Shown here: positions 3,073 to 17,889 of the stretch, in pieces
Position numbering within the stretch: the first letter of the stretch is position 1
Layout of the letters: each line of letters starts with the position of its first letter
Assembly: GCF_013408685.1 (NCBI RefSeq)
Contig: NZ_JACBZY010000001.1
Coordinates: forward strand, 1,736,001-1,800,000
Length of the DNA stretch: 64,000 nucleotides
Reading direction: 5' to 3'
From: Schumannella luteola
Lineage (GTDB): Bacteria > Actinomycetota > Actinomycetes > Actinomycetales > Microbacteriaceae
The notes under the pieces: model-generated
The model's input: only the letters and a program-made list of their open reading frames with translations
Told to the model about the DNA's origin: nothing
Databases searched by the model: none
Translations under genes and position numbers: made by a program

Positions 3073-3091
3073 TACCTCGAACAGGAGCATG

Positions 3092-4060
3092 ATGCCCGTC
3101 AGCGAAGAACAGGCGACCTGGTTCGCCGACGCGTTCACGAAGCTCGTCGACAACGTCGACCTCGCGATCGTCGGCAAGAAGGAGGTCATCCGCCTGGTCG
3201 TGACCGCGCTGCTGAGCGAGGGGCACGTGCTGCTCGAGGACTTCCCCGGCACCGGCAAGACCGTGCTCGCCAAATCGATCGCCAACACGATCGACGGCTC
3301 GAACTCGCGCATCCAGTTCACCCCCGACCTGCTGCCGTCGGATGTGACGGGCGTCACGATCTACGACCAGGGCAAGGGCGTGTTCGAGTTCCACAAGGGC
3401 CCGATCTTCGCCTCGGTCGTGCTGGCCGACGAGATCAACCGCGCGAGCCCGAAGACGCAGTCGGCGCTGCTCGAGGTGATGGAGGAGGGCGTCGTCACGG
3501 TCGACGGCGTCGGCCACTCGGTCGGCGCGCCGTTCATGGTGATCGCGACGCAGAACCCCGTCGAGCAGGCCGGCACCTACTCGCTGCCCGAGGCGCAGCT
3601 CGACCGCTTCCTCATCAAGACGTCGCTCGGCTACCCCGACGACGCGACCGCCGTGTCGCTGCTCATGGAGTCGTCGAACCGCGCCCGCGCCTCGCTCGTC
3701 TCGCCGATCATCGCCTCCGGCTCGGTCGCGAGCATGGCCCAGCTCACCAGCGAGGTCTTCGTCGACCCGGCCGTCATGCAGTACCTGCAGCAGATCGTCA
3801 CCGGCACCCGCGGCCACAAGGATGTCGTGCTCGGCGTCAGCATGCGTGGCGCCCTCGCGCTCGCCCGGGCCGCGAAGACGTGGGCGCTGTCGCGCGGCCG
3901 GGGCTACGTCACCCCCGATGACGTGCGCGAACTGGCCGTGCCGGTGCTCGCGCACCGCATCATCGTCGACCCGGAGTCGGAGTTCGTCGGCGTCTCGGCG
4001 CACGACATCGTCAACCGCATCCTCGTCGAGGTCGAGCCGCCCGCGTACCGCGCGGCATGA
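3092..4060 (+). CDS. MoxR family AAA+ ATPase (copy 1)
   Basis: This is a MoxR-type AAA+ chaperone of 322 aa. The Walker A motif PGTGKTVLA lies near residue 53. The Walker B/sensor region LADEINRASPKTQSALLE near residue 110 is the MoxR family hallmark. ATG 3092 is chosen over ATG 3089 because AGGAG at 3083-3087 then has a 4-nt spacer. The last base triplet overlaps the next gene (ATGA at 4057-4060), indicating translational coupling to the DUF58 gene. In known families MoxR acts with VWA or DUF58 proteins in maturation of surface or periplasmic complexes. Here it probably serves the adjacent Ig-like protein or the type VII system, which is inference. A paralogue lies at 61330-62436. Confidence 0.95.
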   Translation: MPVSEEQATWFADAFTKLVDNVDLAIVGKKEVIRLVVTALLSEGHVLLEDFPGTGKTVLAKSIANTIDGSNSRIQFTPDLLPSDVTGVTIYDQGKGVFEFHKGPIFASVVLADEINRASPKTQSALLEVMEEGVVTVDGVGHSVGAPFMVIATQNPVEQAGTYSLPEAQLDRFLIKTSLGYPDDATAVSLLMESSNRARASLVSPIIASGSVASMAQLTSEVFVDPAVMQYLQQIVTGTRGHKDVVLGVSMRGALALARAAKTWALSRGRGYVTPDDVRELAVPVLAHRIIVDPESEFVGVSAHDIVNRILVEVEPPAYRAA

Positions 4061-5439
4061 CGACGACCCTCGAGCCGCCGGCGGGAGCGCCGCAGCCGAC
4101 CGGCCCCGAGCCGGCCGGCGCGGAGCTGTCGTCGGCCGACGCCGAGGCAGCCCGGTCGCGGGCACGCCGTCGTGCGCGGCGCGCGTGGCCGGTCTGGCTG
4201 CGCTGGCTGCCCGCGGTCGGCCGTCGCGCGGCGGGGATCGCGCAGGTCGTCACGCTGCTCGCGTCGCGGCTCTGGGGCGTGCTGCGGCCCCGTCTGGCGA
4301 TCGTCAGCGCGATGGGATGGCTCGTGCTGCTCGCCGCCGTCGTGTTCGGCGTGGCCGGGTTCGTGCTCGGCTGGCAGGAGTTCGTCTACCTCGCGGTCAC
4401 GCTGCTCGCCGGCCTGCTCGTCGCGATCGGCTTCGTCTTCGGGCGCGCGAGCTTCCGGGTGCTCATCGAGCTCACCCCGCGCCGTGTCGTCGCGGGCGAC
4501 CGCGCTCTCGGCCGGATGCTCGTCGCCAACACGAAGGCGAAGCGCAGCACCCCGGCGCGCATCGAGCTGCCGGTCGGCGCCGGGCTCGCCGAGTTCGTCA
4601 TCCCGCCGCTCGCACCGGAGGCCGAGCACGAGGAGCTGTTCGCCGTTCCGACCAACCGCCGCGCCGTCATCGTGGCCGGTCCGGCCGTCTCGGTGCGCGG
4701 CGATCAGCTCGGGCTGCTGCGCCGCACCGTGCGCTGGACCGAGCCGGTCGAGCTGTTCGTGCATCCGCTCACCGCCCGTCTCGCGCCGAGCGCCGCCGGC
4801 CTCGTGCGCGACCTCGAGGGCGAGACGACCAAGACGATCACGAACAACGACATCTCGTTCCACGCGCTGCGGGCCTACGAGCCCGGTGACGACCGCCGCT
4901 ACGTGCACTGGCGCACCTCGGCGCGCACCGGTCAGCTCATGGTGCGGCAGTTCGAGGAGACGCGGCGCTCGCAGCTCACGATCGTGTTCAGCTCCGACCG
5001 CCGCTGGTACGTCGACGAGGCCGAGTACGAGCTCGCCGTCTCGGTCATGGCCTCGCTCGCGCAGCAGGTCATCCGCGATGGCACCCGCGTGAGCGTCGTC
5101 AGCGAGAAGCAGCAGCTGCGCACCGTGACCCTCACGGCGATGCTCGATGACAGCTGCCGCCTCGAGCCGATCGCGAGCCCCTATGCGAGCCCGCGCGAGT
5201 TCGCCCGGCAGGCCACGCTGCGACTGCCGCCGCCGAGCGTCGCGATGATCGTGGCCGGCTCGCTCATGCCGCTCACCGACTTCCGGGCGATCGAGCGGCT
5301 CTTCGGCCTCGACACCCAGACCGTCGGCTTCCGCACCGAGGTGGGTGCGACGCCGCGCCTCGCCTCGATCAGCGGACTCCGCGTCGGCACGGTCGGCGAG
5401 CTCGCCGACCTGCAGAAGATCGTGCGGAGGATGTCGTGA
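4057..5439 (+). CDS. DUF58 domain-containing membrane protein (copy 1)
   Basis: The protein has 460 aa. A charged N-terminus is followed by two hydrophobic segments around residues 85-130. The cytosolic DUF58 core carries the signature YEPGDDRRYVHWRTSAR near residues 273-288. DUF58 proteins are regular partners of MoxR ATPases and often precede a transglutaminase-like membrane protein, as here. The gene is coupled on both sides: ATGA with moxR at 4057 and GTGA with the next gene at 5436. Its biochemical role is unknown; a VWA-like scaffold or adaptor for MoxR is the usual inference. A shorter paralogue lies at 62472-63779. Confidence 0.93.
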   Translation: MTTTLEPPAGAPQPTGPEPAGAELSSADAEAARSRARRRARRAWPVWLRWLPAVGRRAAGIAQVVTLLASRLWGVLRPRLAIVSAMGWLVLLAAVVFGVAGFVLGWQEFVYLAVTLLAGLLVAIGFVFGRASFRVLIELTPRRVVAGDRALGRMLVANTKAKRSTPARIELPVGAGLAEFVIPPLAPEAEHEELFAVPTNRRAVIVAGPAVSVRGDQLGLLRRTVRWTEPVELFVHPLTARLAPSAAGLVRDLEGETTKTITNNDISFHALRAYEPGDDRRYVHWRTSARTGQLMVRQFEETRRSQLTIVFSSDRRWYVDEAEYELAVSVMASLAQQVIRDGTRVSVVSEKQQLRTVTLTAMLDDSCRLEPIASPYASPREFARQATLRLPPPSVAMIVAGSLMPLTDFRAIERLFGLDTQTVGFRTEVGATPRLASISGLRVGTVGELADLQKIVRRMS

Positions 5440-7844
5440 GCGCCGCCGCCGAGACCGTCACGTCGATCCCGACGCAGCCCGACGGCGCCCGCGATGCCCG
5501 CCCGGCCTCGCGCGCGATCAGCCTGCGCACCTGGGCCGACGTCGGCGTCATCGCCACGCTCACCCTGATCGGCCTCGTCGGACTCGGCACGGCGTTCACC
5601 GACCTCGGCTACCTGCTCGCCGGCGTCGGCGGGCTGCTCGTCGGCGGGGGCGTCGCGATCCTCAGCGCGCGCTACCGCTTCGGCGCCCTCACGACCGTCG
5701 CGATCGCGGTCGTCGCCTACTTCCTGCTCGGCAGCGCGCTGGCGATCCCCGAGCAGGCGCTGCTGCACGTGCTGCCCACGCTGCAGACCCTCTCCGGTCT
5801 CGCCGTCGGAGCCGTCTTCGGCTGGGCCGACCTGATCACGCTGCGCGCGCCGGTCAGCCTGCCGTACTACGTCAACGCCGTGCCCTACGTGAGCACCTGG
5901 CTGATCGCGCTCGTCGCGGTGACTCTGGCGACCCGCTGGCTGGCGGAGCGCCGCCGCACGGTCGGCCGCGCATCCCTGCTGCTCATCGGCCCGGCCGTGC
6001 TCTATGTCACGGGCGTGCTGCTCGGAACCGACGAGCCCTACTTCGCGGCCGTGCGCGGCGTCGCCTTCGCCGCGATCGCGCTGATCTGGCTGGGATGGCG
6101 TCGTCGCGAGGGCGGGCGCCTCAACGTCGGCAGCGGCAGTCCGCTGCTGCGCCGCAAGATCACCGGCACCGCGATCGTCGTCGTCGCCGCGGTCATCGTC
6201 GGCGTGGTCGGCGGCACCCTGCTCGCCCCCGCCTCGGCGAACCGCTTCGTGCTGCGCGAGCAGATCCAGCCGCCCTTCGAGCCGCTCGACTACCCGGCGC
6301 CGCTGGCCGGCTTCCGCAAGTACACGAAAGACCTCGACGACACGAAGCTGTTCACGGTGAACGGCCTGCGCGACGGCGACCTGCTGCGCCTCGCCACCAT
6401 GGACACCTACGACGGCGTCGTCTGGGGCGTCGCGGGCGCCGACGTCGACGTGCAGGGCTCCGGCAGCTTCCGGCTGGTCGGCCGCACGATCCCGAAGGCG
6501 CCCTTCGCCACGGCCGGCGCGAAGCGCACCCTCGACGTGACGGTCGACGGCTACTCCGACGTCTGGCTGCCCGACTCCGGCTACGCGACCTCGCTCGACG
6601 TCGACGGCGTGCAGGGCGGCACGGGCGAGGATGTGCGCTACAACGCCGCCACGGGCACGGCCGTCATCACGACCGGGCTGAAGAAGGGCGACGAGTACCG
6701 GGTCGCCGCCGTCAGCCAGAAGCTGCCCGACCAGAAGGCCCTCGCCGACGTGCCCACGGCATCCATGGCCCTGCCGCCGGTGCGCAACATCCCCGACGTC
6801 GTGGCCGCGAAGGCGAGCGAGCTGGTCGCCGAGAAGAAGTCGCCGATCGACCAGGTGCAGGCGATCGCCGATGACCTGTCGACCACCGGCTTCCTCAGTC
6901 ACGGCACCGCCTCCGACCAGGCGCCGTCGCGGGCCGGGCAGGGCAGCGACCGCATGGCCGAGATGATCACGGCGCAGCACATGGTCGGCGACGAGGAGCA
7001 GTACGCCTCGCTGATGGCGCTCATGACCCGCAGCCTCAACATGCCGACGCGCGTCGTGATGGGCTTCAAGCCGAGCGTGCCGAAAGACGGCGGCACGGCG
7101 ACCGTGACCGGCGAGAACGTCACCGCCTGGGTCGAGGTCGCCTTCCAGGGCGTCGGCTGGCTGCCGTTCTACCCGACGCCCGACGACACCGACGTGCCGC
7201 AGGACCAGACGCCGAAGCCGAAGACCGAGCCGCAGCCGCAGGTGCGGCAGCCTCCGCGCACCGAGAACGACCAGGACGACCTGATCACCCCGGTCGAGAT
7301 CGACGACTCCGACAAAGACGACGACAGCCTGTTCCAGCTGCCCGGCTGGGTGATCCCGCTCGCGCTGAGCATCCTCATCCCGCTGGCGATCGTGTTCCTG
7401 CCGATGCTGGTGGTGACGTTCCTCAAGCGCCGGCGGATGCGGCGCCGTCGCAGTCCGGGCGGCGACCGCTCCGTCGCGGGCGCCTGGGACGAGATGGTCG
7501 ATCGGCTCAGTGAGCTCGGCTACGACCCGCCCACCCGCGTCACTCGTCCGCTCGTGGCCTCGGGGCTCGCGCCGAGCCTCGGCGAGCAGGGCGCCGGGGT
7601 GACGCTGCTGGCCGAGCGCACCGATCGTGCGGTGTTCGCCGGTCAGGATGTCGATCCCGAGCGGGTGGATGCCGCGTGGCACGACGCGCTCGGCGTCGTC
7701 GACGGCGCCGGCACCGCGGCGGGACGCACCAGGCGCATCCTCAGCCGCTACCGCGTCGGCGCCGTTCGCCGCTGGGCGGGCCGGCTGTCGGCCGCCGCGA
7801 CGGCCGCCCGTCGCCCCTCCGCACCCGACGCACCCGAGCTCTGA
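5436..7844 (+). CDS. Membrane transglutaminase-fold protein with degenerate active site
   Basis: This 802-aa protein resembles TgpA/DUF3488-transglutaminase proteins. It has a cluster of transmembrane helices at about residues 30-265, a long extracytoplasmic region, a transglutaminase-like core, a Pro-rich acidic linker, one more helix near 637-665 and a cytosolic basic tail. In active members the core reads G.C.QFA ... HAWVE ... FDPTP. Here the three triad positions are Glu (about 520, GDEEQYA), Thr (about 563, VTAWVEV) and Tyr (about 579, FYPTP), so Cys, His and Asp are all missing. The GTG start overlaps the DUF58 stop. It is probably a structural pseudoenzyme of the surface or secretion apparatus. 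Confidence 0.9.
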   Translation: MSAAAETVTSIPTQPDGARDARPASRAISLRTWADVGVIATLTLIGLVGLGTAFTDLGYLLAGVGGLLVGGGVAILSARYRFGALTTVAIAVVAYFLLGSALAIPEQALLHVLPTLQTLSGLAVGAVFGWADLITLRAPVSLPYYVNAVPYVSTWLIALVAVTLATRWLAERRRTVGRASLLLIGPAVLYVTGVLLGTDEPYFAAVRGVAFAAIALIWLGWRRREGGRLNVGSGSPLLRRKITGTAIVVVAAVIVGVVGGTLLAPASANRFVLREQIQPPFEPLDYPAPLAGFRKYTKDLDDTKLFTVNGLRDGDLLRLATMDTYDGVVWGVAGADVDVQGSGSFRLVGRTIPKAPFATAGAKRTLDVTVDGYSDVWLPDSGYATSLDVDGVQGGTGEDVRYNAATGTAVITTGLKKGDEYRVAAVSQKLPDQKALADVPTASMALPPVRNIPDVVAAKASELVAEKKSPIDQVQAIADDLSTTGFLSHGTASDQAPSRAGQGSDRMAEMITAQHMVGDEEQYASLMALMTRSLNMPTRVVMGFKPSVPKDGGTATVTGENVTAWVEVAFQGVGWLPFYPTPDDTDVPQDQTPKPKTEPQPQVRQPPRTENDQDDLITPVEIDDSDKDDDSLFQLPGWVIPLALSILIPLAIVFLPMLVVTFLKRRRMRRRRSPGGDRSVAGAWDEMVDRLSELGYDPPTRVTRPLVASGLAPSLGEQGAGVTLLAERTDRAVFAGQDVDPERVDAAWHDALGVVDGAGTAAGRTRRILSRYRVGAVRRWAGRLSAAATAARRPSAPDAPEL

Positions 7845-7863
7845 GCGCCCCGTGCCGACCCCG

Positions 7864-7881
7864 ATGGGGACCGGTGCCCAT
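7864..7881. promoter_or_regulatory. Palindromic operator, type VII locus site 1
   Basis: The site reads ATGGGGACCGGTGCCCAT. It matches two other sites in this locus (12264-12281 and 17065-17082) under the pattern ATGGGSA-N4-TSCCCAT. It lies 89 bp before the WXG100-like start and 22 bp before a possible -10 box TACATT at 7904-7909, so it would abut the -35 region. The following TTTTTCT means the arms could alternatively act as a weak terminator of the upstream operon. Confidence 0.6.
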
Positions 7882-7924
7882 TTTTCTCGAGCCCCCATCG
7901 ACATACATTGAATGCATTCGGTCA

Positions 7925-7945
7925 CCTGAGAGGGATGGCCTCAGG
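7925..7945 (+). promoter_or_regulatory. Short hairpin in the WXG100 5' leader
   Basis: CCTGAG (7925-7930) and CTCAGG (7940-7945) form a 6-bp perfect stem with a 9-nt loop, ending 8 nt before the AAGGAG ribosome-binding site. It may stabilise the mRNA or modulate translation; the function is unproven. Confidence 0.35.
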
Positions 7946-7970
7946 ATCCAACTAAGGAGTGATCGGCCCC

Positions 7971-8267
7971 ATGGCTAACGTCAACGTCACCTACAGCGAC
8001 ATGAACGATGCCGCCCACCGCCTCATCGCCGGCAAGGACGACATCACCGCGAAGCTCACCGAGCTGCAGACCCTGGTCAACGGACTCGTCAACGGCGGCT
8101 TCGTGACCGATTCGGCCTCGGGCGCGTTCCACACCTCGTACGAGCAGTTCACGAAGGGCACCACCGACGCCGTGAGCGGACTCGACGGGATGTCGCAGTT
8201 CCTCACCAAGGCCGCCGAGGCGCTGCAGAACGTCGACAGCGAGCTCGCCAAGGGCATCGGCGGCTGA
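7971..8267 (+). CDS. WXG100-like small secreted protein (lacks the WXG motif)
   Basis: This 98-aa all-helical protein has the size and helix-turn-helix pattern of ESAT-6/WXG100 proteins, the small secreted substrates of type VII secretion. At the turn where WXG100 proteins carry W-x-G it reads NGGFVTDSASGAFHTSYEQF, so Phe replaces Trp while the following A..F pattern is kept. ATG 7971 is chosen because AAGGAG lies at 7954-7959; an in-frame GTG at 7959 would overlap that site. It is monocistronic, flanked by the shared palindrome upstream and a strong hairpin downstream. Assignment rests on size, fold pattern and proximity to the EssC-like ATPase. Confidence 0.8.
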   Translation: MANVNVTYSDMNDAAHRLIAGKDDITAKLTELQTLVNGLVNGGFVTDSASGAFHTSYEQFTKGTTDAVSGLDGMSQFLTKAAEALQNVDSELAKGIGG

Positions 8268-8289
8268 GTCAGCCGCCTCATCGCGACGG

Positions 8290-8320
8290 GGCGCGGCGGA
8301 TCGGGGGATCCGGCCGCGCC
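8290..8320 (+). terminator. Stem-loop terminator after the WXG100-like gene
   Basis: GGCGCGGC-GGATC pairs with GATCC-GGCCGCGCC, a near-perfect 13-bp stem with one bulge and a short G loop. It starts 22 bp after the stop and is followed by TCTCGTCTGTC. The U-tract is weak, as is usual for actinobacterial terminators. Confidence 0.6.
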
Positions 8321-8351
8321 TCTCGTCTGTCACCGGGCCTCCGTCCGGCGG

Positions 8352-8395
8352 CGCATCGGATCGACCCATTCCGGGTCGTCAGCAGATCCGATGCG
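8352..8395. repeat. Nested inverted repeat (11-bp outer arms)
   Basis: The outer arms CGCATCGGATC (8352-8362) and GATCCGATGCG (8385-8395) are perfect complements. Inside them GACCC and GGGTC form a second stem. The element sits between the WXG100 gene and the membrane protein at 8448. It could be an operator, a second terminator or a cruciform. Confidence 0.55.
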
Positions 8396-8447
8396 TCGCG
8401 AGACGGGGGCCCGGTTCCGTCTGCCCGCAGCGTGAGAGCATGATCCG

Positions 8448-9227
8448 ATGGCCCGCCGCACCGACCACCGCGAGCCCGCTCGTCCGCCCACGCCGACTGC
8501 GCTGGCCCTGAGACCGTTCGGCTACCTCGGCGCCGCGCTCGCCTGGGCCGCGCTCGCCGCTCTCGGCGTGATGCTCTACACGCTGCTGCCGTCGATGATC
8601 GAGCCGCCGCTGAGTTCCGCCCCGGGCCTGCGGGTCCTCGGCGTCGACGTCGGCGAGACGATCGCCTTCGTCATCGGCATGGGCCTCGGCGCGATCATGA
8701 TCGGCTTCCTGCTGCTCGTGATCCCTCTCGCAGCGGGTGGTCTCGCGATCCTGTCGCTCACCTACGTCGTGCGCTCCCTGCGACCCGCGTACCGCGGCGA
8801 GCGACTGTCGATGACCCGCTGGGATGCGGATGCGATCGGTCCCGTCCGCCTCGGAGGGACGCTCCTGACGCACGAGCGGGGCCCGCTGCGTCGCTTCTCG
8901 GGCATCGGCGGGGGCGTGGCTCTCTCGCTGCTGCCGGTGCGTCAGACGCGCTGGAGCGCGTTCTGGTCGGTCCTCGTCGTGAGCTGCTTCACGCCGGGAT
9001 TCCGCACCGTGCTCTCGAGCGGCGTCTGGGGCGTCGCCTATCTCGTCACGGTCGGCTGGATGGCGTGGCCGGTGCCTGCCGGCTCCGAGCCGATCTGGGT
9101 GGGCGTGAGCGTCGTGCTCGGCGTGGCCGCGCTCGTGCTGGTGGGTCTCAGCTGGCGGCACTCGGTGCTCGGCGGACGCGACGCCGACGCCGGTACCACC
9201 GGTGATGCCGGCGTCGTCAAGCGCTGA
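8448..9227 (+). CDS. Polytopic membrane protein of unknown function
   Basis: The protein has 259 aa and I do not recognise its family. Five or so hydrophobic segments are visible: about residues 20-45, 62-105, 160-185, 190-210 and 220-245. An Arg-rich N-terminus suggests the N-terminus is inside. Start ATG 8448 has only a weak purine stretch upstream. It lies between the WXG100-like gene and the convergent type VII minus-strand operon, so it may be an accessory membrane component, but nothing in the sequence proves this. Confidence 0.7.
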   Translation: MARRTDHREPARPPTPTALALRPFGYLGAALAWAALAALGVMLYTLLPSMIEPPLSSAPGLRVLGVDVGETIAFVIGMGLGAIMIGFLLLVIPLAAGGLAILSLTYVVRSLRPAYRGERLSMTRWDADAIGPVRLGGTLLTHERGPLRRFSGIGGGVALSLLPVRQTRWSAFWSVLVVSCFTPGFRTVLSSGVWGVAYLVTVGWMAWPVPAGSEPIWVGVSVVLGVAALVLVGLSWRHSVLGGRDADAGTTGDAGVVKR

Positions 9228-9239
9228 GCGACCGGGCGG

Positions 9240-9872
9240 TCAGCTCGCGTCGGGCGACGTCGGGGCAGGCTGCTCTGCCGTGCCCGGCGCCGGGAACCAG
9301 CGGATCGAGTCGACGATCGCGTCGACGAGCTCCGTGTAGAGCTCGCGGTCGGCGGCGGTCGGCAGATCGACGTCGATGTGCACGAGCTTCTCGCCGTCGG
9401 GCCGCGCGACCCAGTACTCGAGCTTGAGATCGGTCGTCGCCTCCGAACCCACGGCGACGTCGCGGAACTCGCCGCGGCGCGCGACGGGCCCGCACGCGAG
9501 GTCGAGGTGCGCGACCCGGGGATAGGCGGCCGTGAGCCGCTCGCCGAGCGTCTGCTCCGGCTGCGCGGCGATCGGCCAGTCGATCATGCGCAGGATCATC
9601 GCGGCGGGGAACGGCACGCCCGGCAGGATCTCGAGCGACAGGCCGACCCGGAAGGCGCCGGCGCGACGGGCCCCCGAGAGCACGCCCTTCAGCTGCTCGC
9701 GGGCATCGCGCCGCACCCGGGCCAGGCGGTCATTGGTGCCGACCTGGCGCTTCACCAGATCGCCGACGAGCTTCGCCTCGTTCTCCGGGTCGTCGGCGAG
9801 CGAGAAGCTCGCCCACGTGCCCGGTAGCACCATGGTCATATCGGCTTCGGAGTACTGCAGCTGACGGGTCAT
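9240..9872 (-). CDS. Hypothetical cytosolic protein, type VII locus (A)
   Basis: The protein has 210 aa, with no signal peptide or membrane segment. It starts MTRQLQYSEADMTMVLPGTW at ATG 9872, which overlaps the stop of the upstream gene (ATGA), so the two are translationally coupled. It ends with an acidic/helical stretch and a Pro/Ala-rich tail. Its length (210 versus 212 aa), order of predicted strands and helices, and early position of an aromatic-rich strand resemble its neighbour, suggesting an old duplication. Possible roles are chaperone, EspG-like binder or immunity protein for the upstream candidate substrate. These are inferences from position only. Confidence 0.7.
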   Translation of the reverse strand: MTRQLQYSEADMTMVLPGTWASFSLADDPENEAKLVGDLVKRQVGTNDRLARVRRDAREQLKGVLSGARRAGAFRVGLSLEILPGVPFPAAMILRMIDWPIAAQPEQTLGERLTAAYPRVAHLDLACGPVARRGEFRDVAVGSEATTDLKLEYWVARPDGEKLVHIDVDLPTAADRELYTELVDAIVDSIRWFPAPGTAEQPAPTSPDAS

Positions 9873-10507
9873 GCGATGGGCTCCAGATCCACCTCGAGCG
9901 TCTCGGCGATGCGCTGGGTGTCGGCGGGCATGTCGGGGAACGCGGCGAGGTCTTCGACGGTGACGATGATCTGCACCATCTGCGTCGCGTTCGGCGGGAA
10001 GACGCCGAACACGGTGCGCCCCTCGACCCAGCCGTCGCGCTCGTCGCCGAGCTGCTCGAAGACCTGGTGCACGCCCGCGAACGGACCTGCGGGCAGGTCG
10101 CCGACCCAGCTCTCGAAGAGGAGGGAGCGCACCTCGGTCTGGTCGGCGGCCTCGCTCAACCGCTGCGCCTCCGCGGCGAACCACGCCGCGTCCTGGCCCT
10201 CGTCGATGTCGAGGATCTGGAACGTCAGGTACCCGGCGACGATCAGGTCGGGAGCGGCGCGCAGGTGCACGGCCGCGACCTGCCAGGGATTGAGCTGTCC
10301 GAGCAGGCGGCGGCGCAGATCGGCCAGCTCGTCGGCCAGACCGGGCCCCAGTGCGGCACCGGGGGAGTCCTCCGACGCCTCGGCGATGACGGTGTTCGCC
10401 CACGACGCGGAGTCGAGCTGCGCCTCGTCGAGGCGCACGGCGTAGAAGTCCTGCGGGATGCCGATGCGCAGATCGGCGATCTCGTGAGAGCGCTGGTCGG
10501 TGGGCAT
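9869..10507 (-). CDS. Hypothetical cytosolic protein, type VII locus (B)
   Basis: The protein has 212 aa and is acidic, with no signal peptide. It starts MPTDQRSHEIADLRIGIPQDF. A -10-like TAGGCT lies exactly 7 nt before the ATG, so it can be made from a leaderless mRNA independent of the upstream 424-aa gene. It is coupled by ATGA to protein A and probably distantly related to it. The family is not recognised. Its position just downstream of a putative type VII substrate makes a chaperone or immunity role worth testing. Confidence 0.7.
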   Translation of the reverse strand: MPTDQRSHEIADLRIGIPQDFYAVRLDEAQLDSASWANTVIAEASEDSPGAALGPGLADELADLRRRLLGQLNPWQVAAVHLRAAPDLIVAGYLTFQILDIDEGQDAAWFAAEAQRLSEAADQTEVRSLLFESWVGDLPAGPFAGVHQVFEQLGDERDGWVEGRTVFGVFPPNATQMVQIIVTVEDLAAFPDMPADTQRIAETLEVDLEPIA

Positions 10508-10514
10508 GATCGTC

Positions 10515-10520
10515 AGCCTA
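10515..10520 (-). promoter_or_regulatory. -10 box of a leaderless transcript (protein B)
   Basis: On the minus strand TAGGCT is followed by a 7-nt spacer and the ATG at 10507, a geometry expected when transcription starts at or next to the start codon. No ribosome-binding site is visible. Confidence 0.5.
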
Positions 10521-10537
10521 ACTTCGGGGTCGGAGGG

Positions 10538-11812
10538 CTAGAAGTGAACCGGCGGTCGGCCGTGCGCGAGATCCTTGAGGATCGAATCCGGCTTGAGGCT
10601 GATCGGCGACGAGTCGTGCGTGTCGAGCGGATTGTTGCCGAGCGACTCGACCTTGCCGGCGATGCCGCGGTAGTTCCAGACGTTGAGAGCGACCTGGTAG
10701 CCCTTGATCTGGTTGGCGACGCTGCTGGCGAACTGGGGGTTGTCGAAGCCCTGGACGCCGAGCGGGTTGCGGCGGAAGTCGTGGAACGCCTGCTTGATGT
10801 CCCAGGTCTTCACCTTGAACGGGTTGGTTCCGAAGATGTCCTTCATCGCGCTCGGCAGCTTGCCGGGCTGGCCGAGCAGGTGCTGCACGTCGGCGAGCTC
10901 CGAGCCCTTCTTGCCCTTGCTGATGCCGGTCAGCGCCTTGAACTCGCGGCGCGGCGCCTTCATCGCGATCGTGAGGCCCTTCGCCTTCACGAGCTTGCCG
11001 AGGTACTTGCCGATGTTGCCGCCGAAGACCGACAGCACCACGCCGACCGCGGCGAACGCGACATCCATCCAGCTTCCGCCGTTGAGGGCCTTGACGACCG
11101 ATTCGACGAGGGTGATGAGCGCGCCGATCGCGCCGAGGATCATGAGGAACTGACCGAGTCCGGGTACCCAGCCGAGGAAGATCGACAGGATGCCGGCCAC
11201 CTCGCAGATCTTCTTGATGATGTCGCCCCAGTCGTCCCAGAAGCTGTCCTCGAGACCGTGCTTGAGCTTGCCCTCGACGACCTCGACGATCGCGGTGATC
11301 GCGACGCGGGCGGCGGCGTCCTTGTCGTCGCGCGCCGAGCGCCAGGCGTCCTGCGCCGAGCGCAGCTCGGAGTCGGCGATCATCGACAGCTGGCTGTAGC
11401 CCTGGGCCGCCTTCGTCGCGTCGGCCTTGTCTTCGTCGGCGGCGTCGTCGATCGCGTCACTGGCCGTCGTCAGGCGCTTGTGCGCGGCGTCGGCGGCGCC
11501 CTGCTTCTCGTTGATCTTCGTGATCGCGGTCTCGGCGTCGCTCTGGGCGGTGTCGAGCTTGCCCGCGTAGGTCACGAGCGCGGTCGCGGTGTTGTGGTAC
11601 CGGTCGTGCGCCTTGTCGATGTCATCGGCGACGTCGCCGGCCGACTCGCGCACCGCATCCACGGCCTTGCTCGTCATGTCGGCCTTGCTCTGCACCGATT
11701 TCAGCGAGGTGACCGAGCGCTGGATCGCGTCGGCGATGTTCAGGTAGTGGGTCGCCTTCGACTTGACGAGGGTCGGCTCGCCCTTGAGCTTGTCGTATTC
11801 GTGGTCAGCCAT
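10538..11812 (-). CDS. Putative type VII secretion substrate (LXG/PPE-like, central hydrophobic region)
   Basis: The protein has 424 aa. Residues 1-170 are a long heptad-like helical domain rich in Ala, Asp and Lys, of the kind that starts LXG or PPE-type type VII substrates. Residues about 195-265 are hydrophobic and glycine-rich (AGILSIFLGWVPGLGQF, then ALITLVESVVKAL and VGVVLSVFGG), suggesting membrane insertion or pore formation. The last 150 residues are soluble and of no family I recognise; this is where effector activity would sit. It starts at ATG 11812, follows a WXG100-like partner by 25 bp and precedes two small cytosolic proteins, the usual substrate-partner-chaperone layout. Function as an antibacterial or surface effector is inference. 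Confidence 0.7.
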   Translation of the reverse strand: MADHEYDKLKGEPTLVKSKATHYLNIADAIQRSVTSLKSVQSKADMTSKAVDAVRESAGDVADDIDKAHDRYHNTATALVTYAGKLDTAQSDAETAITKINEKQGAADAAHKRLTTASDAIDDAADEDKADATKAAQGYSQLSMIADSELRSAQDAWRSARDDKDAAARVAITAIVEVVEGKLKHGLEDSFWDDWGDIIKKICEVAGILSIFLGWVPGLGQFLMILGAIGALITLVESVVKALNGGSWMDVAFAAVGVVLSVFGGNIGKYLGKLVKAKGLTIAMKAPRREFKALTGISKGKKGSELADVQHLLGQPGKLPSAMKDIFGTNPFKVKTWDIKQAFHDFRRNPLGVQGFDNPQFASSVANQIKGYQVALNVWNYRGIAGKVESLGNNPLDTHDSSPISLKPDSILKDLAHGRPPVHF

Positions 11813-11837
11813 CGTTCTCGTGCTCTCCTGCTCGCGC

Positions 11838-12191
11838 TCAGTAGGCCGTCGGGTTGTGGCCGGGGTTGTTCTGGCCCGGGGGAGGGAAGCTCGTGTCGCC
11901 GGAGTCCGCCGCGTCGCGCAGCGCCTTGGCGAGCTCCTTGTCGACCTTCGTGAAGCCGTCGGTGATGGCCGAGAGCTGCTCGCGCAGCGCCTTGATGTTC
12001 TCGGTCATCTTCTTGCGCTTGTCGTTCCACTTGTGCGCGAAGTCGCGCACGTGGCCGCCGAGGTCGTCGTGCCCGGTCGCCTCGGCGACGTCGTCGCTGA
12101 AGTCGTCGGCGCCCTCGAACTCGGCGATGACCGCGTCGAGGTCATTCCGGAGCTGCTCGAGCAGACCGAGATCCATCTTCAGATCGGGCAC
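11838..12191 (-). CDS. WXG100-like helical partner protein
   Basis: The protein has 117 aa, almost entirely helical, with RDFAHKWNDKRKKM between two long helices and a Pro/Asn-rich tail. Size, charge and position just before a candidate LXG-like substrate match small WXG100-type partners that co-secrete or pilot larger substrates. The start is GTG 12191 behind a GGAAGAGGAAGAG purine run; ATG five codons further in is possible. The shared palindrome (12264-12281) and a -10-like TATCGT (12237-12242) lie upstream, giving this gene its own promoter inside the minus-strand series. Confidence 0.75.
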   Translation of the reverse strand: MPDLKMDLGLLEQLRNDLDAVIAEFEGADDFSDDVAEATGHDDLGGHVRDFAHKWNDKRKKMTENIKALREQLSAITDGFTKVDKELAKALRDAADSGDTSFPPPGQNNPGHNPTAY

Positions 12192-12236
12192 GTCTCTTCC
12201 TCTTCCCCCGACGCGCGGTCACGTCGACACGGATCA

Positions 12237-12242
12237 CGATAG
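12237..12242 (-). promoter_or_regulatory. -10-like box for the 12191 operon
   Basis: The minus-strand hexamer TATCGT lies 21 bp downstream of palindrome site 2, the same spacing (22 bp) as between site 1 and its TACATT box. This supports one regulator acting at the -35 region of both promoters. Confidence 0.4.
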
Positions 12243-12263
12243 GTGAGCGGATCGCGGCACCGA

Positions 12264-12281
12264 ATGGGGAGGCCTGCCCAT
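12264..12281. promoter_or_regulatory. Palindromic operator, type VII locus site 2
   Basis: The site reads ATGGGGAGGCCTGCCCAT and shares 14 of 14 fixed positions with site 1. Flanking bases extend the arms to CGAATGGG/CCCATTCG. It lies 72 bp upstream of the minus-strand start at 12191. Confidence 0.65.
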
Positions 12282-12315
12282 TCGAGGCCGGGCCGGTCTC
12301 CGACGTCAGCCGACG

Positions 12316-15300
12316 TCAGCCGACGAGCGGGAGCTGGATGCGCACGGCCTTCCCCTTCGCGATGAGCACGCCGCGACCTGGCGGGAACTCGGCACGGTTC
12401 ATGCGCGGCAGCGGGGTCTTGAGCAGGATGTCGCCCTCGACCGCCTCGGGCTGCAGCAGCAGGCCCCTGCGGCCGTTCTTAACCTCGCCGAGCAGCGGCC
12501 ACGAGGAACTCCATCCGGAGGTCTCGTTCTCGGCCAGCAGGAAGTGGTCGCTGCGCTTGACGGCGCGGATGAGCTCGACGATCGCCGAGTCGGCCGGCGT
12601 CTGCAGGAAGTCGCCGATGCTCTCGATGACGATCGCGATGCGGCCTTCGGTGTCGGGGTCGGTGATGGCGGCGGTGAGGTCCTTCGCCAGCTCGGCCGCC
12701 GACTCGGGCGTCGTCGCCGAGCCGGCCCACTCGCGGGATCTCCCGACGTTCGAGCGCGCGTTGCCGAGGTAGTAGAGCCGCGTCTCCGGCTGCGCCCGCC
12801 CGATCGCCGTGGCGATCGTCTCGAGCGCCGTGCTGCGCCCGCTCGCAGGCGGACCGGCGAGAAGCAGGGTGCCGACCGGCTCGAAGCCCCATGGTCCGAG
12901 GTCGACGTCGCTGAGGCCGATGACCGGCTGGCCGGCGACCCCGTCGGGCAGCGTCGACTGCGCGTACTCCTTGGGCAGCGAGCCGACGCGCGGGGCCTCG
13001 GGCACGCCGGCGCGGCGCATCGCCTCGCCCAGCAGCCGGGTCGCCGTGGACTGCTCGGCGACGACGCGGCTGCCGCCGAGGATGGCGATCTGCGTCTCGA
13101 GGCCGTCGACGATGGCGCGGCCGGGAGGCGAGGCGGCGCTGAGCACGTCGCTGGGCGCGTCGACCATGCCGTAGCTGTCGTCGGCGAGGCGCAGGATGAC
13201 CCGGCGCTGGATGTTCGATCCGACGGCCGTGGGCACGGCGCCAGGGCGGTCGGCGGTGAGCGCGACGTGCATGCCGAGCTGGCGCCCGTCGCTGAGGATG
13301 TCCTCGAACACGGAGTACCACTGCGAGCGTCCCGCGGGGATCTCGAAGTCCTCGCGGAAGTTCGGGAAGCCGTCGATGAGCAGCAGGATGCGCGGCTCCT
13401 GCGTGCGCCCCGTCAGGGCCCGGTACTCGGTCACGCTCGAGGCGTTCGCCTCGGCGAAGCGGGCGGCGCGGCTGTCGAGCTCCTCCCGCATCCGCCGGAA
13501 CAGCCGGATGACGCGCTCGGTGTCGTCGCCGTTGATGACCGCGCCGACGTGCGGCAGCTGCTCGAGCATGCGCAGGCTGCCGGCGCCGAAGTCGAGGCCG
13601 TAGACCTGCACGGGGCCGCCGCGCGGGGTTATCGCCGCTGCGCCGGCGAGGGTGCGCAGCACGGCCGACTTGCCGGTGCCGCCGGTGCCGAGGATCGAGA
13701 GGTGGCCGTCGACGTCGGGCAGGAAGTAGACCGGCATCTGCCGCTGCTGCTGGGGCACGTCGGTGACGCCGAGCAGCAGCTCGGCATCCGTGCGCTGGCG
13801 CAGCCGGCCGAGGTCGTAGGCGAGCGCGAGCTCGTCGAGCCACGGACGTCGGGGCGCGGGGATCTGCGCTCCAGCGGCGGCGCGGATGATCGAGGTGACC
13901 AGGCGCTGCTGATCGGTCGGCCCGAGATCCTTCTCCTCGGCGGGGGCGTCGGAGCGCGGCTCCTCCCAGCGGACCTCGCCGCCGAACCGCAGCTCGGCGA
14001 CGAGCACGTCGGCGACCTCCGGCTCTCGGCTCGTCCAGCCGCCCGCGTAGGCCGACTGGAACTGGGCGAGGCGGCCCGGCCCGGTCTTCGCGACGCCGCG
14101 GCCGGGGATGCCCGGATCGAAGTGCGCGGCCTCCTTGATGCCGACCACATCCTGGCTGTCCGACTCGTCGGCCATGCGGAGAGCGACGCGCATGTTCGTG
14201 TTGGCGCGCAGATTGTCTTTGATCACGCCGGCCGGGCGCTGCGTGGCCATGATCAGGTGGATGCCGAGCGAGCGGCCGCGCTGGGCGATGTCGACGACGC
14301 CGTCGACGAACTCGGGCACCTCGCCGGCGAGGGCGGCGAACTCGTCGATCACGAGCACGAGCGCCGGCGGGCTGTCGGGGTCGCCGCGCTTCTCGAGCTC
14401 GAGCAGGTCCTTGGCCTTCTTGCGGTTGAGCAGGTGCTCGCGGTGGTGCAGCTCGGCGCGCAGGCTGGTGAGGGCGCGGCGCACGAGGTGCGGGCTCAGG
14501 TCGGTCACGAGGCCGACGCAGTGCGGCAGCGTCACGCAGTCGGCGAAGGCCGATCCGCCCTTGTAGTCGACGAAGAGGAAGGTGACGCGGTCGGGGCTGT
14601 ACTCCGCGGCCATGCCGAGCACCCAGCCCTGCAGGAACTCGCTCTTGCCGGCGCCGGTCGTGCCGCCGACGAGCGCGTGCGGGCCCTGCGTGCGCAGGTC
14701 GAGGTGCATCGCATCCACGCCGGCGCTGCCGACGATCGCGCGCAGCTTTCCGGCGCGGCGGCGCTTCGGCTCGATGCCGGGGGTGCGGTCGTGGATCGAC
14801 TCGTTCTGCTTCCAGCGGTCGATGACCGACTCGCTCGTCTCGACCAGCTCGTGGCCGAGCAGGGTGATGAGCGAGATCGAGCGCGGCAGGTCGCTCGCAT
14901 CCGCGACGAGGGCGCCGGAGTCGATGACGGCGGCCAGACGCCGCGCGTAGTCGAGGGCCTGCACGGGATCGACGAAGTCGACCAGCACGTTCTCGATCGT
15001 GTCGCCGAGCCGCACGAAGCCCACCGAGGGGGTCGCGAGCGTCGGGACCAGCTCGACCTCGGGGGTCGGCAGCGGGGGCAGGCCCTTCTTGCGGCGCTTC
15101 GCCTCGGCCTTGCGCTTCTTCGCCTTCTGCTTCGAGAGCTTGCGGGCGGCCTTCGACCCGACGGCGGGCCGCTCGGTCTTCTCCTCGGGCTTCGGCGCCA
15201 TCACGGTCGAGCCGGGCTCGGGCAGGGCGAGGAAGGTGCGGCAGACGGCCGGCAGGTCCTTCTGATCCTCGGCGAGCCAGATCGGGTACACCCCGGCATC

Positions 15301-16977
15301 CGCCGCCTGCTCGGCGAGCTGCACGAGTCGCGCGCGGTCCACGGCGACGTCATCGCTGATGAGCAGCACGAGCGCCGGGATGGGCGAGCGGGTGCCCTGC
15401 GTCGCCTGGTCGTCGCCGACGGTGGCCCCGCGGTCGAGCGCCATCTGCTCTTCCTTGGTCGCGCCGCGGCGGCCGTCGCCCTTCGCGGCGGCGAGTCGGC
15501 GGGTCACGAGCTCCTCGATCGCGCTCAGCAGCGCGGTTCCGCTCGAGGGGCTGTCGGCGAGGTGGCTGCCCTGGATCGGGCTGTGCGGCGACGAGGTGTG
15601 CGGCATCCACTTCAACCAGTCGAAGCCCCCCGACCAGGCCGGGGTGATCAGTGCGGCCACGGCGAGCTCGGCCGGCGAGTGCAGGCCGGTGAGCTGCACG
15701 AGCAGCGCGTTCGCGGCCGCGATCGTCTGCGGCGTCGGGCCGGCGACTCCGAGGGCGCCGGAATCGTGCAGGTTGTCGACGATGGGCACCTGCTCGACGT
15801 GCGCGTTGTCGGCCGCGACCTCGTCGAAGCGCTCCTGGTAGTCGGGCAGGGTGTCGTTGCCGCCCTTGTCGTCGCGGATCGTGTTGCGCGACAGCATCCG
15901 CCCGACGCCGAGGCGCACGTTGAGGAACGACCAGTGCTCGGGGCGCCGGGTCCAGAGCATCGTCTGCCGGTGCAGCGCGGCGTCGAGCACCTCGTGGGTC
16001 GACGGCGCCTCGCGGTGGCGTCGCTCGTGCTCGACGAGCTTCTCCTCGTCGAGCGTATCGGCCAGCTTCTCGAGGTGGCCGTCGAACTTCTCGATCGAGA
16101 CGCGCTTCTTGCGCCCGCGGTTGAGTGCCTGGGTGATGAAGTTGCTGATCATCATGAGCGGCGACAGCGCGACGAAGATCAGCGTTCGCGGGTCGCGACT
16201 GAGGGCGAAGATCGCAGCGCCCATCGCGAGCGGCGCGATCATCGCGAGGAAGGGGAACGGCTGCCCGTCACCCTCCTTAGGCACCTCGGGCCCCGGGTAC
16301 TCCTGACCGGGGTAGCGCGGCTCGACCGAGGGCGAGCGGTTGAAGTAGACGGGGCCGGCCGTCGGGGCGCCACCCTCCTCGGCCACTTCCTGGTCGACGT
16401 CGATGCGGATGGCGGTGTCGCCGATCGTGATCGTCTCCGACGTCTCGACGCGCAGACGCGTGACGAGTCCGCCATCCACCTCGATGCCGTTGGCCGAGCC
16501 GAGGTCGACGATCTCGACCGCCGCATCCGCCTCGAGACGCAGGTGGCGCTTGGAGACCAGCGGGTCGTCGATCACGATGTCGCAGGCGCGGTCGCGGCCG
16601 ACGATGGTGGTGCCCGCGTGCAGGTCGAGCGTGCGGCCGCCCTGCGGGCCGCTGAGGATGCTGAGGCGGGCGACCACCGGGCCGCGCCCGGTGCCGGCGG
16701 GGGAGTAGTAGCGGCCGGCGTCGACGAGCTGCACCGTCGCGCCCGATCCGATCCACGACTCGCCGACGGGTCCGTCGGGCGGCAGCACGAGCGACTGGCT
16801 CGACCCCGGCAGCACCGCGCTGAGCGTGAGCGAGCCGGCCGGCGCGGGGCCGGGCGACGCCGGGTCGACGCGGCGGATGGCGCCCGCCACCTCGGCGATC
16901 GTCGCCGCCGCATCCGTCGTGATGACGATGTCGTCGCTCGTGCCCGTATCGCGCTTCAGGGTCAGCTTGAGTCGCAC
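12316..16977 (-). CDS. EssC/EccC-type FHA-FtsK/SpoIIIE ATPase of type VII secretion
   Basis: This 1,553-aa motor protein is the key component of the type VII locus. In order it has a ubiquitin-like N-terminus, an FHA domain at about residues 103-192 (VGRDRACDIVIDDP, SKRHLRLE, GSANGIEVDG) and two membrane helices near 240-285. Three FtsK-like ATPase domains follow. Walker A motifs are GGTTGAGKSEF near 770, GTGGTGKSAVL near 1096 and the degenerate GPPASGRST near 1374. Walker B ALVLVIDEFAAL belongs to the first. A very basic linker (KAKKRKAEAKRRKKG) lies around 592-636. The FHA-plus-fused-ATPase layout is EssC-like rather than the split EccCa/EccCb form. It starts at GTG 16977 behind GAGGAGG. 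No EccB, EccD, EccE or mycosin is present in the window. Confidence 0.93.
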   Translation of the reverse strand: MRLKLTLKRDTGTSDDIVITTDAAATIAEVAGAIRRVDPASPGPAPAGSLTLSAVLPGSSQSLVLPPDGPVGESWIGSGATVQLVDAGRYYSPAGTGRGPVVARLSILSGPQGGRTLDLHAGTTIVGRDRACDIVIDDPLVSKRHLRLEADAAVEIVDLGSANGIEVDGGLVTRLRVETSETITIGDTAIRIDVDQEVAEEGGAPTAGPVYFNRSPSVEPRYPGQEYPGPEVPKEGDGQPFPFLAMIAPLAMGAAIFALSRDPRTLIFVALSPLMMISNFITQALNRGRKKRVSIEKFDGHLEKLADTLDEEKLVEHERRHREAPSTHEVLDAALHRQTMLWTRRPEHWSFLNVRLGVGRMLSRNTIRDDKGGNDTLPDYQERFDEVAADNAHVEQVPIVDNLHDSGALGVAGPTPQTIAAANALLVQLTGLHSPAELAVAALITPAWSGGFDWLKWMPHTSSPHSPIQGSHLADSPSSGTALLSAIEELVTRRLAAAKGDGRRGATKEEQMALDRGATVGDDQATQGTRSPIPALVLLISDDVAVDRARLVQLAEQAADAGVYPIWLAEDQKDLPAVCRTFLALPEPGSTVMAPKPEEKTERPAVGSKAARKLSKQKAKKRKAEAKRRKKGLPPLPTPEVELVPTLATPSVGFVRLGDTIENVLVDFVDPVQALDYARRLAAVIDSGALVADASDLPRSISLITLLGHELVETSESVIDRWKQNESIHDRTPGIEPKRRRAGKLRAIVGSAGVDAMHLDLRTQGPHALVGGTTGAGKSEFLQGWVLGMAAEYSPDRVTFLFVDYKGGSAFADCVTLPHCVGLVTDLSPHLVRRALTSLRAELHHREHLLNRKKAKDLLELEKRGDPDSPPALVLVIDEFAALAGEVPEFVDGVVDIAQRGRSLGIHLIMATQRPAGVIKDNLRANTNMRVALRMADESDSQDVVGIKEAAHFDPGIPGRGVAKTGPGRLAQFQSAYAGGWTSREPEVADVLVAELRFGGEVRWEEPRSDAPAEEKDLGPTDQQRLVTSIIRAAAGAQIPAPRRPWLDELALAYDLGRLRQRTDAELLLGVTDVPQQQRQMPVYFLPDVDGHLSILGTGGTGKSAVLRTLAGAAAITPRGGPVQVYGLDFGAGSLRMLEQLPHVGAVINGDDTERVIRLFRRMREELDSRAARFAEANASSVTEYRALTGRTQEPRILLLIDGFPNFREDFEIPAGRSQWYSVFEDILSDGRQLGMHVALTADRPGAVPTAVGSNIQRRVILRLADDSYGMVDAPSDVLSAASPPGRAIVDGLETQIAILGGSRVVAEQSTATRLLGEAMRRAGVPEAPRVGSLPKEYAQSTLPDGVAGQPVIGLSDVDLGPWGFEPVGTLLLAGPPASGRSTALETIATAIGRAQPETRLYYLGNARSNVGRSREWAGSATTPESAAELAKDLTAAITDPDTEGRIAIVIESIGDFLQTPADSAIVELIRAVKRSDHFLLAENETSGWSSSWPLLGEVKNGRRGLLLQPEAVEGDILLKTPLPRMNRAEFPPGRGVLIAKGKAVRIQLPLVG

Positions 16978-17025
16978 TCGGCCTCCTCGTGAGCGGGCGC
17001 GGCGCAGCCCGCGCGCCCCACGGGC

Positions 17026-17031
17026 ACCCTA
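17026..17031 (-). promoter_or_regulatory. -10-like box for the EssC-like gene
   Basis: Minus-strand TAGGGT lies 48 bp upstream of the GTG start at 16977, which has a GAGGAGG site close by. The divergent region also holds palindrome site 3. Confidence 0.4.
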
Positions 17032-17064
17032 TTCGGTGGGGCGGCGCCGGGCCTCGCCGAGGGG

Positions 17065-17082
17065 ATGGGCATGACTCCCCAT
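17065..17082. promoter_or_regulatory. Palindromic operator, type VII locus site 3
   Basis: The plus strand reads ATGGGCATGACTCCCCAT; its reverse complement is ATGGGGAGTCATGCCCAT, identical to sites 1 and 2 at all fixed positions. It sits between the divergent EssC-like and FHA genes, 4 bp before TAGCCT (17087-17092), the likely -10 of the FHA gene. It therefore could act on both directions. Confidence 0.65.
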
Positions 17083-17115
17083 CCGCTAGCCTGGCGCGGT
17101 CGGAAGGGGATGCGG

Positions 17116-17760
17116 ATGAGCGACGAGAAGCGCTTCCTCATCACCCCGCCGCCGGGGCTGCTGCCCGAGGCTCCCGCCGCCCCGGTCGAGCCCGAGCCGG
17201 AGCGCCGCGTCGACGAGGAGCACGGCGACTCGGCCACGCGCCGGGTTCTGCCGCGGTCGCCCGGGGTCGCCTTCCCGCTGCCGTCGAACCCGATGGGCGG
17301 AGCGGCGGCGCCGGTTACAGCGGCTGAGTCGGCGTCGGCTCCGGCAGCGGCACCGCAGACTCCCGCGCGATCCGTCTCGACCCCGTCCGGCGAGGCCGAG
17401 GTGCCGACCGGCGAGCACCCCGCCCAGCTCGGGCCCTGGACCATCCGGCTGCCCGACGGCACCGCGCAGCTCGTGACCACCGCCGGCGTCGTGCTCGGCC
17501 GCAACCCCGTCGTGCCGGAGCGCTGGCCGGCAGCGGAGCGGCTGCGCATCCACGATCCCGAGCGCACCGTGTCGAGCACCCACGCGCTGCTGATCGTCGT
17601 CGGGGCGACGCTGCGTCTCGTCGACCTCGGCTCGACCAACGGAGTCGCCGTCACCTCGGCCGGCGTGCGCGAGAAGGTGGCGGGCGCCGACGGCGTGAAG
17701 GTCGGAGACCCGGCCGAGATCGAGCTCGGCAGCTTCCACCTGCGGGTCGCGCGCGGCTGA
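17116..17760 (+). CDS. FHA domain protein of the type VII locus
   Basis: This 214-aa cytosolic protein has a Pro/Ala-rich flexible first half of about 110 residues. It ends in an FHA phosphopeptide-binding domain (VLGRNPVVPE, RTVSSTHALL, DLGSTNGVAV) that runs to the C-terminus. Start ATG 17116 is preferred over ATG 17110 because GGAAGGGG (17102-17109) then has a normal spacer. It is divergent from the EssC-like ATPase and shares palindrome site 3 with it. A regulatory role through a Ser/Thr kinase encoded elsewhere, probably upstream of the window, is inferred from the fold. Confidence 0.85.
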   Translation: MSDEKRFLITPPPGLLPEAPAAPVEPEPERRVDEEHGDSATRRVLPRSPGVAFPLPSNPMGGAAAPVTAAESASAPAAAPQTPARSVSTPSGEAEVPTGEHPAQLGPWTIRLPDGTAQLVTTAGVVLGRNPVVPERWPAAERLRIHDPERTVSSTHALLIVVGATLRLVDLGSTNGVAVTSAGVREKVAGADGVKVGDPAEIELGSFHLRVARG

Positions 17761-17805
17761 GCGCCGGCCCGCCCTCGAGCGCGGCGCGCGCCCGGATCGC
17801 GGTGG

Positions 17806-17811
17806 TAGCCT
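17806..17811 (+). promoter_or_regulatory. -10 box of the leuL-leuCD leader transcript
   Basis: TAGCCT is followed by a 6-nt spacer and the ATG of the leucine leader peptide, so the leader appears to be translated from a leaderless mRNA. Confidence 0.6.
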
Positions 17812-17817
17812 GGCGCG

Positions 17818-17865: not shown

Positions 17866-17889
17866 TCTTTCCGGCCTCCCTCGTCGCGG
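17845..17889 (+). promoter_or_regulatory. Leucine attenuator stem-loops
   Basis: CCGCGACGAGG (17850-17860) and CCTCGTCGCGG (17879-17889) form a perfect 11-bp stem. A competing short hairpin uses CGTCG (17845-17849) and CGACG (17853-17857) inside the peptide gene, and GAGGCC/GGCCTC gives a third option. No long U-tract follows, so either weak-U intrinsic termination or control of leuC translation is possible. Confidence 0.65.

Follow-up and report, generated by a model that had tools for sequence, protein, structure and literature searches.

The 64,000-nucleotide stretch of the Schumannella luteola genome analysed here (contig NZ_JACBZY010000001.1, positions 1,736,001 to 1,800,000; hereafter the window) carries genes of a type VII secretion system (T7SS), and one 18-bp palindrome recurs upstream of a WXG100 gene, of an operon encoding a small partner protein and a probable substrate, and between divergent genes for an EssC/EccC-type ATPase and an FHA-domain protein. 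The original prediction had named three sites that agree at all 14 fixed positions of ATGGGGA-N4-TGCCCAT, and all three match without a single mismatch, at 7864-7881 (+), 12264-12281 (+) and 17065-17082 (-). The palindrome consensus is ATGGGGAGNNCTCCCCAT. The sites and the genes next to them are as follows.

7864..7881, plus strand: palindromic site 1, ATGGGGACCGGTGCCCAT, upstream of the WXG100 gene; at the same place in two same-genus genomes
7904..7909, plus strand: -10-like box TACATT, first base 23 bp (22 bp between) past site 1, toward the WXG100 gene
7971..8267, plus strand: WXG100 protein, 98 aa (Pfam PF06013, 8e-13)
12264..12281, exact match read on the plus strand, feature oriented on the minus strand: palindromic site 2, upstream of the partner/substrate operon
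12236..12241, minus strand: -10-like box TATCGT, first base 23 bp past site 2, toward the partner operon
11838..12191, minus strand: small protein of the substrate operon, 117 aa, without a Pfam match but with relatives in other clusters
10538..11812, minus strand: probable substrate, 424 aa, with a T7SS_signal domain (Pfam PF21725, 5.3e-11)
17065..17082, minus strand: palindromic site 3, between the divergent EssC and FHA genes
17026..17031, minus strand: -10-like box TAGGGT toward EssC, first base 34 bp past site 3; also in two same-genus genomes
17087..17092, plus strand: -10-like box TAGCCT toward the FHA gene, not in activator geometry
12316..16977, minus strand: EssC/EccC-type ATPase, 1553 aa, with an N-terminal FHA domain and two FtsK/SpoIIIE stretches
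17116..17760, plus strand: FHA-domain protein, 214 aa (Pfam FHA, 4.9e-05)

At sites 1 and 2 the same 22 bp separate the palindrome from a TAnnnT box, an equality that had also been predicted. The spacing toward EssC at site 3 (+34) is about one helical turn beyond +23. On the other side of site 3 (window 17083-17115), the -10-like box of the FHA gene lies only 5 bp past the site, and the palindrome may thus repress the FHA gene while activating EssC.

Rarity and conservation of the palindrome

Chance recurrence, which the original prediction had called very unlikely, was rejected by shuffles, by an own-genome control and by a family-genome control. With up to three mismatches allowed and each site counted on both strands, the window contains 9 matches versus 2.31 expected, a number reached by none of 100 shuffles. 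The 3.75 Mb contig of the own genome (G000) contains ATGGGSA-N4-TSCCCAT at 5 exact places, while the reversed motif that served as the control pattern occurs at none; with up to two mismatches the numbers are 20 and 4. The motif is rare genome-wide and its sites are mostly intergenic (3 of 85 lie inside a called gene in one set, and 1 of 83 in 80 named loci), two results that leave the predicted regulator unrefuted. Outside the window, one site lies in the same type VII cluster, next to a row of genes that extends into the window, and another lies far away.

Genome 1733412-1733429: site 4, in the same type VII cluster but 2.6 kb beyond the left window edge, ahead of the large Ig/FN3 gene
4..3072, plus strand: 3' part of the large Ig/FN3 repeat protein (Big_9 1.2e-32, fn3 2.8e-21), whose gene starts left of the window
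2942..4060, plus strand: MoxR-type ATPase (Pfam AAA_3, 1e-60), in the same gene row as the Ig/FN3 protein
4057..5439, plus strand: DUF58 protein, in the same gene row as the MoxR-type ATPase
5436..7844, plus strand: TgpA-like transglutaminase, last gene of the row that begins after site 4
Genome 2589157: site 5, exact, ahead of a second MoxR-DUF58 gene row

Conservation at orthologous promoters, expected of a genuine regulatory site, was found within the genus: two of the four other genomes have 5 exact places each, at the same five promoters, whereas one has 1 and one has 0. Across these five promoters in G000 and two comparison genomes picked for having exact sites (G001, G002), the 12 fixed letters are identical in every genome, compared with 4 to 44 invariant positions among the 80 that flank them. 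Beyond the genus, the site is present in 39 of 120 genomes of the family (97 matches by summing rows; control 1, in one genome), in 38 of 149 genomes of the order with the pattern ATGGGSASNNSTSCCCAT (control in one genome) and in 5 of 296 genomes of the phylum with the strictest pattern, ATGGGGASNNSTCCCCAT (two of the five in the family; control in one genome), counts that rest on increasingly strict patterns and are thus not of one strictness. A scan of a genome collection for ATGGGGAGTNCTCCCCAT gave at least 115 stretches. Among the 80 stretches listed, all but six bear names that we take to be Micrococcales or unclassified Actinomycetales; the exceptions are two Streptomyces, an Actinoplanes, a Gordonia, a Propionibacteriaceae metagenome-assembled genome (MAG) and a Myxococcota MAG. 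In a viral collection of 2.9 million contigs 10 stretches had a motif match, which gives no sign of a phage feature. A literature search, also by the site string, found no description of such a site.

Spacing to the -10 box and target genes

The geometry of the palindrome was derived from 289 non-redundant exact sites for per-site counts and 535 non-redundant oriented flanks for per-offset counts. In the flanks, TAnnnT starts at +23 in 114, at +24 in 54 and at +25 in 11, with a background mean of 0.77 per offset over 40-65; offsets +33 and +34 have 5 and 8. Counted by site, 194 of the 289 show TAnnnT at +23..25 on one or both flanks (on both in 4 cases), compared with a mean of 3.4 and a maximum of 8 sites in control 3-bp windows, and 10 further sites have it only at +33..35. 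The per-position consensus past the site contains C and then G (0.79) directly after it, and no TTGACA-like box. With TAnnnT placed at -12 to -7, the palindrome would cover about -52 to -35. Judged from these sequences, such a spacing is the geometry of a class II-type activator, which would replace the -35 element and abut the -35 position.

The genes behind these promoters point to type VII secretion. Among the 64 nearest proteins from the listed named loci (side with the -10 box preferred, cut at 300 aa), Pfam at E <= 0.01 recognised 26 WXG100, 12 WXG100_2 and 8 EspC proteins, three groups that may overlap, and WXG100 is the largest target class. Placement upstream of WXG100-type genes also recurs in other families of the order. 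Further targets are EssC, PP2C, MoxR-DUF58 gene rows and the Ig/FN3 protein; for 19 of the 83 sites of the 80 named loci, no correctly oriented gene was called within 400 bp. The predicted dedicated regulator of type VII secretion is thus supported by the rarity and conservation of the site and by the WXG100 promoters, and is refined in that other genes are targets, too, and that a candidate regulator exists.

The palindrome also follows the secretion machine across the family. When EssC+ is defined by an EssC relative at E <= 1e-60 in the 120 family genomes, exact sites are present in 36 of 71 EssC+ and 3 of 49 EssC- genomes (p = 1e-7). EssC regions of 15-20 kb were read in 20 of the 35 EssC+ genomes without an exact site: with a close EssC (n=11), 6 have a site with 1-2 mismatches at the right spacing and 5 do not, and with a distant EssC (n=9) none has. 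The EssC locus of a Curtobacterium plasmid contains one 2-mismatch match, 7 kb upstream of a WXG100 gene, and its weak matches are fewer than the shuffle mean.

Several individual sites extend this picture. A P/Q-rich membrane protein of the own genome, which has no Pfam match, is encoded behind a 1-mismatch site that has TAGAGT at +23. The target L019:4553-6292 and its relatives had been read as HtrA proteases, an assignment that we rejected as Pfam found nothing; by its sequence, the product seems to combine a P/Q-rich tail with a membrane segment and an extracytoplasmic part. At 2662735 (L014:1501-1518, gene from 1554), a 2-mismatch site has TACAGT at +24, and only a few bases past this box lies the start codon of a PrsW-family intramembrane protease (E 1.2e-52). 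In Gordonia sihwensis (L321) the site (+23) follows PP2C and the candidate regulator, and in Actinoplanes italicus (L297) it lies, again at +23, ahead of a WXG100-like gene. In the Propionibacteriaceae MAG (L303), the site ahead of a WXG100-like fragment lacks a -10 box, and a second site has boxes at +24 on both sides and no called gene. In Isoptericola (L169:4001-4018 and L299:3158-3175) mraZ and a MoxR-type gene flank the site, and in the direction of mraZ TAGCGT is found at about +32.

Candidate regulator and alternatives

It had been noted that no obvious candidate gene is adjacent to the sites. This holds inside the window, but not for the cluster as a whole, which encodes a candidate just beyond the edge.

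Genome 1732706-1733422 (L016:8707-9423): candidate regulator, 238 aa, 2.6-3.3 kb left of the window edge, same cluster

The candidate gene belongs to an operon with PP2C, FHA and Ser/Thr kinase genes (kinase at L016:7034-8710). The N-terminus of its product contains, by eye, an FHA-like pattern GR..HR that Pfam does not call as FHA, and its C-terminus, which reads ...SANAAQRLGWSMTTFNRKLDNVCDKLDKIG...RRARLVEYA..., belongs to a protein with a faint match to the helix-turn-helix (HTH) model HTH_8 (E 0.097). A profile search over the fetched DNA found the protein in 28 open reading frames, or 25 after removal of three overlapping loci, from Microbacteriaceae, Brachybacterium, Isoptericola, an Arthrobacter chromid and Gordonia; two additional matches came from the reading of EssC regions. 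The helix FNRKLDNVC is identical in all 25 loci. In the loci read, PP2C precedes the gene, as do FHA and Ser/Thr kinase genes where they are seen, or else the gene lies immediately ahead of EssC. In 8 of the 25 loci, Gordonia included, the 3' end of the gene is no more than about 150 bp from a site, and a -10 box at a preferred spacing accompanies 7 of the 8 sites. In G005 and G034, which represent two genera, a site with a -10 box at +23 and +24, respectively, precedes the row PP2C-FHA-kinase-regulator, which suggests autoregulation.

Known families gave limited guidance for this protein. HTH_8 matches 2 of 7 homologues (best E 0.039), and hhalign places the C-terminal profile of the candidate on GerE-type HTHs in register, albeit weakly (E 0.0018, with a low alignment probability of 14.9%). 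Class II activators of the NarL/GerE type (DevR, ComA) bind palindromes whose half-sites have GGGA-type cores or are arranged 6-4-6, and whose centre lies near -43. The half-site layout found here resembles theirs, but the candidate differs from them in that none of the 7 homologues matches Pfam GerE (PF00196) at E <= 10. The NCBIfam EspM model (NF052403) likewise matches none of the 7 at E <= 1, and Pfam, NCBIfam and PDB sequences yielded no family for the protein. We infer that it has FHA and HTH folds and would bind the palindrome.

Several observations weigh against this assignment and against the activator geometry. The HTH part is predicted from weak profile matches and the FHA-like part was recognised by eye, and Pfam calls neither firmly; the PDB search returned four unrelated proteins (E 0.13-0.93), and of the four single matches in NCBIfam (E 0.041-0.064) two are to ArgP. 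Nearly all candidate-regulator loci were fetched because they contain a site, so the linkage between protein and site is biased. In the EssC regions the protein is present in 2 of the 6 that have a 1-2 mismatch site, one of them only as an edge fragment, and in 0 of the 14 others. The EssC locus on the Arthrobacter chromid encodes the protein and has no site within two mismatches in 34 kb, though its gene row may start outside this stretch. Of the 289 sites, 85 are without TAnnnT at either spacing, as is the exact own-genome site at 2589157.

The palindrome could also be the activator operator of a T7SS regulon that is read by a different, unlinked DNA-binding protein, the FHA-HTH protein being a mere component of the cluster. 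Near-exact sites in G078, G071, G114 and G052 without the protein in the 20-kb EssC region, which also count against the candidate, would fit this explanation, as would sites at genes far from the cluster. We regard it as unlikely, since GerE, CRP/FNR, Streptomyces TetR and own LuxR-type candidates all failed, in a search that did not cover XRE, MarR, GntR, OmpR and further families. GerE proteins were inventoried in G000 (18), G118 (17), G436 (6), G429 (6) and G542 (16) and compared for all of G000, G436 and G429, 9 of 17 in G118 and 9 of 16 in G542; a GerE-type regulator was rejected, as no HTH is conserved over G000, G436 and G429 despite the nearly invariant operator. A CRP/FNR protein was rejected with best HTH_Crp_2 scores of 31 bits in G000 and 28 bits in G118, versus 62-71 bits in four other genomes. 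The matches above the cut-off (three in G000, two in G118) read as GntR-, DtxR/MntR- and ArsR-like, and the whole-genome search revealed no convincing CRP/FNR-type HTH in these two Microbacteriaceae. A LuxR gene seen divergent from a MoxR operon (L155) had suggested a LuxR/LAL regulator, but the own LuxR-type protein (L107) is present in 34 of 120 genomes (E <= 1e-12); an exact site occurs in 16 of these 34, and 23 of the 39 site-bearing genomes lack a match to the protein. MraZ is improbable because MraZ boxes are direct TGGGN repeats. In Streptomyces marokkonensis (L268:6135-6152) and S. europaeiscabiei (L306:7395-7412), ATGGGGAGTGCTCCCCAT or its reverse complement lies beside a tetR gene. 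That TetR protein has no match in G429 and a best E of 3.4e-6 in G436, and was rejected; its sites differ in having the -10-like box at +16, not +23, and are probably an unrelated TetR operator of the same sequence. In L268 a second GGGGAGTGCTCCCC lies just downstream of the palindrome.

The other alternatives concern the action of the site. The same protein and site might serve as a repressor that blocks RNA polymerase next to the -35 position, a possibility compatible with the operator part of the favoured reading, to which we nevertheless give little credence. The palindrome at site 3 does cover the region upstream of the possible FHA-gene -10 box (TAGCCT, +5), and EspM, the closest architecture, represses whiB6 in mycobacteria, as described in passages of PMC7002343. 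The near-invariant -10 spacing, together with a second class about one helical turn upstream, is however expected of an activator that touches polymerase rather than of a repressor, and the flank consensus lacks a -35-like TTGACA. That the palindrome forms an RNA hairpin or an intrinsic terminator where upstream genes end is hardly credible at all. Although site 1 looks like a hairpin plus T-run, 20 bp past a stop codon, pairing between positions 6 and 13 is impossible in 31 of the 289 sites and, going by the letters, at each of the three window sites. Five or more T among the first 8 bases occur in 1 of 198 oriented flanks, and site 3 lies between divergent genes. Rfam gave no match at gathering score in window 1-20000. 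In the leader RNAs after the -10 box of six WXG100 genes, |z| was <= 0.6 in five and z = -2.36 in one, which argues against a common RNA structure.

Proposed mechanism and significance

Taken jointly, it is probable that the palindrome is the operator of a T7SS-regulon activator, and that this activator is most likely the FHA-HTH protein at 1732706-1733422. The operator of a T7SS regulon is its strongest part, and very likely; as to mechanism and ALTERNATIVES, the palindrome likely works in activation; the FHA-HTH protein is probably the activator. A dimer would contact both ATGGGGA half-sites and occupy about -52 to -35, adjacent to sigma region 4, where the promoter has a TAnnnT -10 box and no recognisable -35 box. 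At a minority of promoters, such as that of EssC here, the dimer would sit one helical turn further up. Genes for a PP2C phosphatase, an FHA protein and a Ser/Thr kinase precede that of the putative activator, and a phosphorylation signal or the state of the secretion machine, sensed by the FHA-like part, thus probably sets its activity. This control by phosphorylation is suggested by gene order and domain type.

The nearest described architecture is EspM of mycobacterial ESX-1, which, according to passages of PMC7002343, combines an N-terminal FHA domain with a C-terminal helix-turn-helix, is encoded beside a T7SS locus and regulates T7SS genes; its C-terminal part, EspMCT, is given as aa 127-363. 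The candidate may resemble EspM in its FHA plus HTH layout, weakly predicted here, and does so in its T7SS-linked gene. It differs in size, with homologues of 231-272 aa compared with at least 363 aa in EspM, and in that the geometry found here argues for direct activation of many promoters, whereas EspM represses whiB6. The cluster itself resembles T7SSd of Actinomycetota as described in PMC11217815, with an FHA-containing EssC-like ATPase, WXG100, a Ser/Thr kinase and a large Ig-like protein, and adds PP2C, extra FHA proteins, MoxR, DUF58, TgpA and the candidate regulator.

T7SS outside mycobacteria and Bacillota are poorly understood, and passages of this recent survey (PMC11217815), whose main text does not contain Micrococc-, Microbacterium or MoxR, name no regulator for actinobacterial T7SSd. 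We tentatively suggest that an undescribed family of FHA-HTH activators could read Ser/Thr phosphorylation or the assembly state of a T7SSd-like machine, and that through one nearly invariant palindrome it could co-activate machine, substrates and envelope genes across much of Micrococcales. If so, the machine would move together with its kinase, phosphatase, regulator and operator as a single unit; phosphatase, regulator and operator lie side by side in Gordonia, as do the EssC end, a WXG100-like gene and the operator in Actinoplanes. A rare 18-bp operator with strict spacing makes the list of co-regulated genes, many small WXG100-like proteins included, readable from genomes. It also offers one testable regulator, which may link kinase/phosphatase signalling to the transcription of type VII secretion genes.

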